Source of the DNA: Oscillospiraceae bacterium | Lineage (GTDB): Bacteria; Bacillota; Clostridia; Oscillospirales; Ruminococcaceae | DNA: 64,000 nucleotides | Direction: 5' to 3' | Assembly: GCA_022800935.1 (NCBI GenBank) | Contig: JAAWRH010000021.1 | Coordinates: forward strand, 1-64,000 | Part shown: in pieces, positions 30,116 to 43,592 of the stretch | How positions within the stretch are numbered: position 1 is the stretch's first letter | Layout: each line of letters begins with the position of its first letter | The notes under the pieces: model-generated | Seen by the model: only the letters and a program-made list of their open reading frames with translations | The model's database searches: none | Told to the model about the DNA's origin: nothing | Position numbers and translations under genes: made by a program

Positions 30116-30219
30116 AAAAAATAACCCTCCTGTTTTATTTACTCTCAGTCAGGACAGTTTCTTCTACTGAGAAAAACAAAAACAGGCGGGTTTTTGTCAA
30201 AAATCCACACGTCTTTTTC

Positions 30220-30284
30220 TCCGGTAGTCGGCGGATAGGCCGCCGGTAGAAACTCAGGAACCGTTTCATCCTGACTATACCGAA
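30220..30284 (-). ncRNA. Purine riboswitch aptamer (guanine type)
   Basis: Read on the minus strand: P1 TTCGGT pairs with ACCGGA (30279-30284 and 30220-30225); J1/2 is ATAGT; P2 CAGGA/TCCTG closes a loop ending in GG; J2/3 is GTTTCTAC, the invariant purine-aptamer sequence; P3 CGGCG/CGCCG closes a loop containing CC able to kiss the GG; J3/1 is ACT, whose C specifies guanine or hypoxanthine. The expression platform follows: 30214-30227 can pair with 30164-30176, and T-rich stretches stand before the permease gene. P2 and P3 are shorter than in the xpt riboswitch. Confidence 0.88.
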
Positions 30285-30412
30285 TAAAATATTTTACAAA
30301 ATAATAGCACACTCGACAGAAAAAATCCACTATTATTTTGAAAATTTTTAATAATTCCTTTATATTTTATCATTTTCGTTAAAAAATACAGCTTTTCTCC
30401 GGCGAACGGCCC

Positions 30413-40664: not shown

Positions 40665-42068
40665 ATGGAAAGTCTGGAAATTTATGACACATATGATGAT
40701 GCGGCGCAATTTTATGAGGAAAGGCCGGATTACAGCGGCGGAACCTATGAGCTGGTATCCAAAATCGCTTATCTGATTGGCGTATCCAAAAATATATTTG
40801 ACAACGAATATGAACCGCCTAAAATTGAAATCTATGAAAAACTGGATCGGGATAAAAATGCCCGCATCATCCGCCATCTGTGTATTATCCGAACGGCCAT
40901 AGAACGGAAATTCAAATATATCAATGAAAAAATGCGGATGGATTATCAAAGCATCCTCTCTATGCCGGAATATATCCCTCCGGAGAGCCTCCGCCAGCTG
41001 GCGGAGGACGGAGTCAATTTTATGAAAAAATCCAGCACAAAGCTCAATCAGCATATTATTGAAATCAACCGGATCATTTCCGACCGGATCAACAACTGCA
41101 AGCCGCTCTTCCCCATGTGGATCAACTGGCAGTACATACACGACCTGTTTATCATGCCCAACGGCCTCACCGAGGCGGGGACCAAGGAGGCGGCAAACCT
41201 GTACTATTCCTCCCGGTCCTATTACCCCTACCAGATGTACATCAACTGGATGCCCAGGGACGAGGGGAACATCCTCTACAATGATAAGAAATTTGCCATT
41301 CTTCTTTACCAGTGGCACAACAACTACTTTACCGATTTAAGCCGCGTCTCCGACGTGAGCAACGAGGTAAAGGGGAACATCTACGACTTTATTGATGCCA
41401 GCAAAAGGGTGGTCATTGTGGTGGACTGCGAAAACTCCGACCCCTACAAGCTGTACGCCACCTTTAAAAACTTAAATTACAAATACATGTCAAAGATTTC
41501 CCTGGTCATTCTGTTTGACGATGTCCACACCGCCAGCGCCTGGAGCATCCTCAGCGAATTCACCTCCCTGAACGTGGAGCACAATGTGATTGAACGGGTA
41601 AAGGAGGATAAGTCCCTGGTGGACATCAAGCTGACGGCCCGTGCCTGCCAGGAATACTACCAAAACAATGTGGATTCCTTCATCATCGTCTCCAGTGATT
41701 CGGACTATTTTGGGCTGATCTCCTCCCTGCCCTCCGCCAGGTTCCTGGTGATGGCGGAGCGGGAAAAATGCAGCCCTGACATGAAAAGGGCCCTGGTGGA
41801 GAAGGGAATCTTCTACTGCTACATCGACGATTTCTACTCCGGCAACTCTGAGGACATGAAGATGAACGCCCTCTTTAAGGAGATGAATTCCTACCTGCGG
41901 AAATCCATCAATCTGAACGTCAACGAAATGTTCTCGGAGGCGCTGCGGGTCACACGGCTGCCCATGTCCACCGCAGAGCGGCGGCAGTTTTATGAAAAGC
42001 ATATACGAAATATGAATCTGACAATCGACAAGGAGGGCAATGTCAGCATTGAGCTGAAGAGAGCATGA
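40665..42068 (+). CDS. NYN (PIN-like) nuclease-domain protein with unrecognised N-terminus
   Basis: A 467-residue protein. Residues about 247-400 match the NYN/LabA-like PIN fold: RVVIVVDCENSDPYK with Asp254 and Asn257, then Asp320 in KSLVDIKLTARACQEYY, and Asp345/Asp347 in FIIVSSDSDYFGLI. The acidic set suggests an active RNase. Residues 1-245 are largely helical, Tyr-rich and unlike anything I know (segments MWINWQYIHDLFIMPNGL and YYSSRSYYPYQMYINW). The last 60 residues are helical. AAAGGAGAG precedes the start. The function may be RNA processing or decay; the targets are not known. Confidence 0.8.
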   Translation: MESLEIYDTYDDAAQFYEERPDYSGGTYELVSKIAYLIGVSKNIFDNEYEPPKIEIYEKLDRDKNARIIRHLCIIRTAIERKFKYINEKMRMDYQSILSMPEYIPPESLRQLAEDGVNFMKKSSTKLNQHIIEINRIISDRINNCKPLFPMWINWQYIHDLFIMPNGLTEAGTKEAANLYYSSRSYYPYQMYINWMPRDEGNILYNDKKFAILLYQWHNNYFTDLSRVSDVSNEVKGNIYDFIDASKRVVIVVDCENSDPYKLYATFKNLNYKYMSKISLVILFDDVHTASAWSILSEFTSLNVEHNVIERVKEDKSLVDIKLTARACQEYYQNNVDSFIIVSSDSDYFGLISSLPSARFLVMAEREKCSPDMKRALVEKGIFYCYIDDFYSGNSEDMKMNALFKEMNSYLRKSINLNVNEMFSEALRVTRLPMSTAERRQFYEKHIRNMNLTIDKEGNVSIELKRA

Positions 42069-42135: not shown

Positions 42136-43410
42136 TCAATCCTTGAGACAGCCAAGGGGTACAACATACACCCCATCCTGTCTCCGATAGGCGTAATCCC
42201 CCGCGCCGATTAGCACCATTAAAAAAGACGGCGCTTTCATTTTTGTGGTATCAATTTTGTCCCTTAATTTTTTCAGATTTTCGGCTCCTTCCTCAATCAG
42301 CTTATCTCCTCCAAGCTTTACCTCAATCAACCCGTAGGAGCCGTTGCGCAGGTGGACCACCGCGTCGCATTCCAGCTCCGTTTTGTCCCGGAAATGGTAG
42401 ACCTTTCCATTTAAGGCGTCGGCAAACACCCGCAAGTCCCGGATACACATTGCTTCAAATAAGAAGCCAAATGTATTCAAATCCGCTATTAAATCCTGCG
42501 GGCCCAAGCCCAAAGCGGCAGCCGCAATGGAAGGATCGACAAAATACCGGGTATTTGAGGTGCGAACGGCTGTTTTAGAGCGCAGGTTCGGATTCCATGC
42601 CTCCATCTCCTCAATGACAAATATCTTCTCCAGGGCAGTGATATAGGAATATACCGTATCGGTATCAAGGGAATCCGAGTCATTTACCGCCATATCCTCT
42701 TTAATAAAAGTGTTTGTCACCTGTGAGCCCTGGTTTCTGGCATAAGAGCGCATGAGGCGCTTTACCCGCTCCGGGTCTCTGGTAACGCCGTCCGCGCGGG
42801 AAATATCCGATTTCACCACCGCGTCATAATAGTCAAACGCCTGTTCAAGGGCAATTTCCCCTTCTAAATCCGTGGCCCTTGGCCAGCCTCCGCGGCACAC
42901 GAGAAAGGCTATCCGATTTAAATCAAGGGGATTTTCCCCGTCAATCTGCTCCGGTGCTTCAAAAAGCTCCTTCAGGCTTACCTCACCGGTTGAATCCAAC
43001 GATTCGTATAAGCTCATCGGTCTCATCAATATCCATGAGAATCGTCCGGTCCCGGTGTGATGAATATGTTCATAAGAGGCCGGCACCGCGGAGCCTGTGA
43101 GGATAAACTGCCCCAACTCGTCACGATGGTCCACCTCAAACCGCACGGCATCCCATAACTTCGGCGCGATCTGCCATTCGTCGATCAATCGCGGAACTTT
43201 CCCCTTCAAAAGCCTTCCAGGGTTTATCTCCGCCATAGTCAGATTTTGCTTTTCTTTTTCAGGGTCAGCCATATAGAGAATGCTGCCCGCCATCTGTTCG
43301 GCTGTTGTTGTTTTGCCACACCACTTTGGACCCTCAATCAAAACAGCTCCTTTTCCAAGAAGGCGTTTCTTTAGTAGTTCATCGGCAATCCTCGGCTTAT
43401 ATTTTTTCAC
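42136..43410 (-). CDS. AAA ATPase with DUF4143
   Basis: A 424-residue protein: an AAA_14 domain with P-loop EGPKWCGKTTT (residues about 26-36) and DEWQIAPKLWDAVRFEVD, followed by a DUF4143 C-terminal part related to restriction-like nuclease/winged folds (LECDAVVHLRNGSYGLIEVKLGG). Such proteins are common in gut Firmicutes and Bacteroidetes in many paralogues; their function is unknown and they may act as ATP-dependent regulators or defence-like factors. GAGG precedes the start. Its promoter overlaps the first of five 23-bp repeats. Confidence 0.85.
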   Translation of the reverse strand: MKKYKPRIADELLKKRLLGKGAVLIEGPKWCGKTTTAEQMAGSILYMADPEKEKQNLTMAEINPGRLLKGKVPRLIDEWQIAPKLWDAVRFEVDHRDELGQFILTGSAVPASYEHIHHTGTGRFSWILMRPMSLYESLDSTGEVSLKELFEAPEQIDGENPLDLNRIAFLVCRGGWPRATDLEGEIALEQAFDYYDAVVKSDISRADGVTRDPERVKRLMRSYARNQGSQVTNTFIKEDMAVNDSDSLDTDTVYSYITALEKIFVIEEMEAWNPNLRSKTAVRTSNTRYFVDPSIAAAALGLGPQDLIADLNTFGFLFEAMCIRDLRVFADALNGKVYHFRDKTELECDAVVHLRNGSYGLIEVKLGGDKLIEEGAENLKKLRDKIDTTKMKAPSFLMVLIGAGDYAYRRQDGVYVVPLGCLKD

Positions 43411-43462: not shown

Positions 43463-43491
43463 ATTATACTATGTTTTCGGCAGTTTGGCAA
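43463..43491 (-). promoter_or_regulatory. Promoter of AAA/DUF4143 gene inside repeat array
   Basis: TATAAT (43463-43468, minus strand) has TTGCCA (43486-43491) exactly 17 bases upstream. The -35 lies inside repeat copy 1, so any protein bound to the repeats would cover the promoter. Confidence 0.7.
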
Positions 43492-43592
43492 ATTATTTTT
43501 CGGCTCTTTGGCTTGTTTTTGTTCGGCAATTTGGCATTATTTTATTCGGCAGTTTGGACTATTTTTATTCGGCAGTTTGGCATTTCTGTAAT
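43478..43592. repeat. Five tandem 23-bp repeats
   Basis: CGG begins at 43478, 43501, 43524, 43547 and 43570, an exact period of 23 bases. The consensus is CGGCAGTTTGGC followed by an 11-base T-rich filler. Four copies keep at least ten of the twelve core bases. The spacing of slightly over two helical turns puts all cores close to one face of the DNA. The array lies between the divergent ATPase and uridine phosphorylase genes and contains the -35 of the former. Confidence 0.9.

Follow-up and report, generated by a model that had tools for sequence, protein, structure and literature searches.

The 64,000-nucleotide stretch of an Oscillospiraceae bacterium genome analysed here (contig JAAWRH010000021.1, positions 1 to 64,000; hereafter the window) carries a gene for an ATPase with AAA_14 and DUF4143 domains, in whose promoter lies a tandem array of short repeats. 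A preliminary description of the locus had placed five copies of a 23-base pair (bp) repeat there and had suggested that they form a cooperative operator array, bound perhaps by the DUF4143 protein itself or by another factor. The features concerned are collected in Table 1.

Table 1. Features of the ATPase gene and its promoter array, with coordinates in the window.
Feature	Position	Strand	Basis
AAA_14 + DUF4143 ATPase gene, 424 amino acids, GTG start, PADLOC PDC-S01 match	42136..43410	-	Pfam and PADLOC profiles; AlphaFold model
Codon of K343, C-terminal PD-(D/E)XK-like domain; residue linked by co-variation to core positions 1-3	42382..42384	-	Co-variation
Predicted winged helix, residues 213-262 (recognition helix 250-262), with co-varying residue 251	42625..42774	-	AlphaFold model, co-variation
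-10 box TATAAT, 17 bp from -35	43463..43468	-	Sequence
Array copy 1 (gene-proximal), GCCAAACTGCCGAA; first four bases belong to the -35 box	43476..43489	-	Sequence
-35 box TTGCCA	43486..43491	-	Sequence; placement relative to array conserved
Array copy 2, GCCAAAGAGCCGAA	43499..43512	-	Sequence
Array copy 3, GCCAAATTGCCGAA	43522..43535	-	Sequence
Array copy 4, TCCAAACTGCCGAA	43545..43558	-	Sequence
Array copy 5 (distal), GCCAAACTGCCGAA	43568..43581	-	Sequence

By direct reading and with Tandem Repeats Finder (TRF), the array was found to consist of five 14-bp cores with the consensus [G/T]CCAAAnnGCCGAA on the minus strand (43476-43581), the strand of the ATPase gene, with a core-to-core period of exactly 23 bp from start to start and AT-rich spacers of 9 bp, as first described. 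The repeated core likewise stood, with the qualification that its copies are not all identical: two carry the full consensus, two differ from it by one base and one by two. A chance origin is excluded by the TRF score of 125 and by Markov resampling: none of 900 resampled sequences exceeded 22 in 23-periodic self-match score, as against 49 for the array. The promoter matches the -35 and -10 consensus at 11 of 12 positions and, together with a Shine-Dalgarno sequence and the GTG start at 43410, was assigned to the ATPase gene; the reported -35 and -10 boxes, the contribution of copy 1 to the former and the location of the array before an AAA/DUF4143 gene were all confirmed. A CRISPR (clustered regularly interspaced short palindromic repeats) or transcribed-RNA role was set aside, as there is no Rfam match at the array and the array lies upstream of the start point of the promoter.

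The search for the same core in the genome and its relatives, advocated in the preliminary description, proved unproductive, because the core diversifies while its period and position stay. When 394 genomes of the order were scanned, the two-copy pattern of the window core was found at a single place in the window genome and in none of the 393 others; the only further exact 12-mer in the window genome falls within a 728-codon open frame. The three-copy pattern had no match in viral contigs, and one pattern match (L261) was dropped since it sits within apparent coding sequence. On another viral contig, a two-copy array (GCCAAAGTGCCGAA / GCCAAACTGCCGAA, 23 bp; L260:4254-4290) was observed with no DUF4143 gene on the stretch examined, and this orphan may be a relic, or it may act as a decoy and titrate the regulator.

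Conservation of the layout before other DUF4143 genes, on which the preliminary description had staked its interpretation, was borne out within the clade. All four close family homologues (41-53% identity) have 23-bp arrays ending at the -35 box, each with a different core. A scan of genome contigs yielded 80 homologues (62-83% identity) in Bacillota, Spirochaetota, Bacteroidota, Gardnerella, Fibrobacter, and Proteobacteria; once the homologues found before and five viral contigs were included, 23 was the best period within the range 12-45 in 88 of 90 upstream regions. In a set of 163 unique homologues from several phyla, which includes additional genomes and same-genome paralogues, 23 bp was the best upstream repeat period in 157, against 101 of 3260 (3%) under a first-order Markov null, and control 250-bp stretches of the same loci remained at chance level (50 of 1772). 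Plasmids of Prosthecochloris and Actinomyces carry homologues with a protein identity of 29-30%, and 23 bp is still their best period, though with a weak score in Actinomyces. Between one and six copies, mostly three to five, are recognised per array. Within an array the cores are more alike than the spacers (0.84 versus 0.68), which indicates that the cores are under selection; across loci, C3, A4, A5, and A13 are near-constant, positions 8-9 hold no shared information, and positions 10-12 alternate among few states. Neutral tandem duplication at a promoter would find some comfort in the variable copy number and in the capacity of slippage to generate tandem repeats, but it is refuted, and deserves hardly any credence, in view of a period of exactly 23 bp in 157 of 163 widely diverged genes, cores conserved above spacers, and co-variation of the cores with residues of the protein.

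The position of the array relative to the promoter is similarly constrained. In 60 of 67 strong promoters outside Bacteroidota, the -10 box starts +19 to +23 or +41 to +44 from the last unit, and the -7 element of Bacteroidota mostly lies at +30 to +31 or +51 to +55; the two -10 positions are about 21 bp apart, or about two helical turns. The array is thereby placed as an autoregulatory operator would be, within the promoter of its own gene and at a fixed position relative to the -35 and -10 boxes.

The encoded ATPase has AAA_14 (50.4 bits, cut-off 27) and DUF4143 (112.2 bits, cut-off 28.1) as its only Pfam domains, and is matched over residues 1-422 by the PADLOC profile PDLC04790 of PDC-S01 (2.7e-62), a profile that other homologues match as well. 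In the AlphaFold model (mean predicted local distance difference test score 91.5), helices 213-225, 233-241, and 250-262 form a helix-turn-helix (HTH) followed by a wing, which puts residue 251 in the first turn of the predicted recognition helix. The D-x(n)-ExK motif of PD-(D/E)XK folds is present in the C-terminal part, where D349, E363, and K365 are invariant in 49 homologues and were placed on the modelled strands E347-354 and E359-367.

Co-variation between core and protein was examined after registration of the cores by a close-group profile, and 48 of the 163 diverse arrays therefore fall outside the set. When all protein columns were ranked by mutual information with the core positions, D251, A241, T250, N243, V242, S245, and M240 came out on top, and a partial Mantel test with overall protein similarity removed gave residues 241-252 as the best window (r 0.277 versus a maximum of 0.116 in 500 permutations); spacer positions showed no link to these residues (window rank 112). 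Residue 251 again came first (r 0.53) in fresh loci that had not been used before. A lysine at 251 goes with G at core position 10 in 12 of 12 cases, as opposed to 2 of 103 for other residues, and aspartate, glutamate or asparagine with C at that position in 77 of 84; stereochemically, both the lysine-G and the aspartate- or glutamate-C pairings are usual. On a tree computed with the co-varying columns left out, independent pairs agreed for K251 and G10 in four of four, for D251 and C11 in about 9 versus 0.6 (median p 0.012), and for D251 and G12 in about 7 versus 0 (median p 0.016). Core positions 1-3 go instead with residue 343 of the PD-(D/E)XK-like domain: lysine or arginine accompanies CC at positions 2-3 in 85 of 93, and other residues do so in 1 of 22. 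The residues DTDT are common to the window protein, L068, and L116 (Muribaculaceae), all with ACTGCCGAA, and a Bacteroides ovatus plasmid homologue of 67% identity has DEDT with ACTGCCGAA; judged from sequence, the same protein-core code is reused by distant lineages.

As the core tracks residues of the protein encoded next to it, the DUF4143 protein itself is indicated as the binder, the first of the two possibilities originally raised. Binding by another factor, such as a host regulator to which the ATPase is linked indirectly, might be entertained on account of Collinsella plasmid relatives that adjoin a separate small HTH gene. A host regulator, however, would read one sequence per genome, yet in none of 51 pairs of same-genome paralogues do the two arrays have a unit in common (best cyclic identity 0.74), the core follows the residues of the adjacent ATPase across phyla, and no HTH-regulator gene was recognised among the neighbours examined at the window locus; this explanation is accordingly regarded as highly improbable.

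In all likelihood, then, the array is a private autoregulatory operator bound by the adjacent AAA_14/DUF4143 ATPase, a reading drawn from comparison of sequences. Each 14-bp core would be bound by the ATPase in asymmetric fashion, with residue 251 in the recognition helix of the winged helix reading the variable half at positions 10-12 and K343 of the C-terminal domain the more constant GCC half at positions 1-3. Neighbouring protomers might align on the copies spaced at 23 bp, probably through ATP-dependent AAA contacts, and binding would be cooperative. So aligned, they would cover the -35 box, and the gene would most likely repress itself until the protein is titrated or degraded, or its nucleotide state changes.

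Several observations weigh against this proposal. Among the 60 promoters classified, the -35 box lies within the last unit in 27, including that of the window, where occlusion is favoured; in the remaining 33 it starts just past the last core and is weaker (4.2 versus 5.0 of 6 matches), which also fits an activator and leaves activation open there. The ATPase might then bind its own array and activate, protomers beside the -35 box recruiting RNA polymerase in the manner of MalT on its boxes, a scheme that would sit well with the -10 position being quantised by about two helical turns and with the superposition of the ATPase part on STAND (signal transduction ATPases with numerous domains) proteins. 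It is considered unlikely, though far from negligible, given that in the window and 26 other loci the promoter is near consensus and its -35 box falls inside the last core, so that the polymerase should be blocked by bound protein. As for co-variation, the homologues are related and laterally transferred, and few independent changes underlie even the strongest of the tests that allow for phylogeny: K343 shows 5.3 agreeing contrasts and none disagreeing on the tree, with a median p of only 0.06, and a link of R211/K211 to core position 6, good in the raw table, failed on the tree and was rejected. The C-terminal residues L382, L346, and G404 also score, signals that may reflect clade structure, and a few homologues (L084 and L091) have weak arrays or none.

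Across the family, promoter repeats peculiar to each gene seem to be the rule, with a layout specific to each clade; more distant DUF4143 clades carry repeats of other kinds, mostly palindromes over the -10 box. Upstream of 47 such genes outside the clade, inverted repeats exceeded the 99% level of the null in 38%, the corresponding share of control stretches being 1.2%; many extend across the -10 box, for example TTCGGCTATAATA...TATTAGCCGAA, and a few are probably terminators of upstream genes. The DUF4143 paralogues in the window genome (L009-L016) include several with promoter repeats of their own that differ from one another, such as GAACAAAATCCGTCTAT...ATAGACGGATTTTGTTC in L010 and three copies of TTGAAAAGT in L015. 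In the genome of Candidatus Limimorpha caballi (G1048, which holds L125), nine clade matches including fragments were noted, with six readable arrays whose units are all different. A decayed homologue with stop codons lies in genome G1034 (contig C7:210546-211819), and several fragments were seen in G1048 and G1054; the turnover of gene copies seems fast.

The gene is also found on plasmids and phage-like contigs, and COG1373 has been listed among horizontally shared gut genes (PMC10782964). The genes flanking the ATPase also occur in three genomes of the same genus, where the ATPase is not next to them and they lie on separate contigs, so that exact insertion boundaries could not be drawn. 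One of these neighbours encodes an NYN-domain protein (40665-42068, plus strand), which adjoins the ATPase and is kept in same-genus genomes that lack the neighbouring ATPase. Farther away in the window, a purine riboswitch aptamer is encoded on the minus strand (30205-30302; Rfam RF00167, 56.1 bits).

In view of such mobility, the array might be taken for an iteron-like or selfish element, with sites for copy control, replication or the exclusion of incoming copies, promoter control being a by-product. The block is missing beside the relatives of its neighbours in the same genus, the two-copy array of L260 stands on a viral contig without its gene, 23-bp direct repeats beside a gene are reminiscent of plasmid iterons, and Foldseek matches the protein to Orc1/Cdc6 initiators bound to origin DNA. 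Most copies, however, occur as lone genes on larger contigs where no replication partner is obvious, and the array position is locked to the promoter; the idea is held to be decidedly unlikely.

If the array is an autoregulatory operator, its importance lies in the protein it would serve. Few unexplained proteins of bacteria are more abundant than the DUF4143 ATPases, and a conserved operator whose protein-DNA code can be read provides a first biochemical activity to test. PDC-S01, a PADLOC candidate, has been reported to rank fourth in frequency among prokaryotic defences, with validation pending for most such candidates (PMC12988326). It is a candidate single-gene phage defence, an AAA ATPase fused to PD-(D/E)XK, whose profile the window ATPase, known here from its sequence, matches. 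No account of its regulation, DNA sites or operator repeats was found in the literature searched, nor any of DUF4143/COG1373 repeats or autoregulation in open-licence PubMed Central, to which the word unreported is limited. A wider proposal, offered tentatively and at somewhat less than even odds, is that PDC-S01/DUF4143 proteins are DNA-binding ATPases directed to addresses of their own: each copy would have its own 23-bp-spaced operator, read jointly by the winged helix and a PD-(D/E)XK fold turned DNA-reading module, diversification of the address would keep copies in the same genome orthogonal, and release from the operator, by titration or an infection-triggered nucleotide change, would be the switch of the defence candidate. 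The array layout is a simple mark for the promoter of any member, through the operator the gene could be induced or silenced in defence assays, and the set as a whole offers naturally occurring orthogonal regulator-operator pairs. Defence screens, which usually rely on expression from foreign promoters, would circumvent the natural control.

Comparison with known systems places the window ATPase near several families. Its best structural matches, over residues 1-301, are the archaeal ATPase_2-type ATPases 2QEN and 2FNA (Z 14.6 and 13.7); a search of the PDB gave no significant sequence match, and no operator is known for these archaeal proteins. VIA-align gave Z 9-12 to CED-4 and plant nucleotide-binding leucine-rich repeat receptors over residues 1 to about 313, a matter of shared fold only. 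MalT and IniR are STAND-like ATPases that control transcription, as is proposed for the window ATPase, but they carry a C-terminal LuxR-type HTH and activate other operons, whereas the window protein has a winged helix and a PD-(D/E)XK domain and its site lies in its own promoter; the IniR ATPase has been modelled on SSO1545 (PMC5760070). Orc1/Cdc6 (2QBY and 2V1U; Foldseek E 4.4e-6) likewise combines an AAA ATPase with a winged helix that binds repeated origin elements, but the TM-score (template modelling score) is low (0.26), and the window system differs in having its sites in its own promoter and a nuclease-like domain fused to the protein. Iteron plasmid Rep proteins are autoregulated through direct repeats of about 22 bp that adjoin their own genes and that they bind; they are without AAA and nuclease-like domains, and no replication function was seen for the window system. 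By analogy, and without family membership being claimed, the window ATPase would resemble an autoregulated initiator or repressor with repeated sites.
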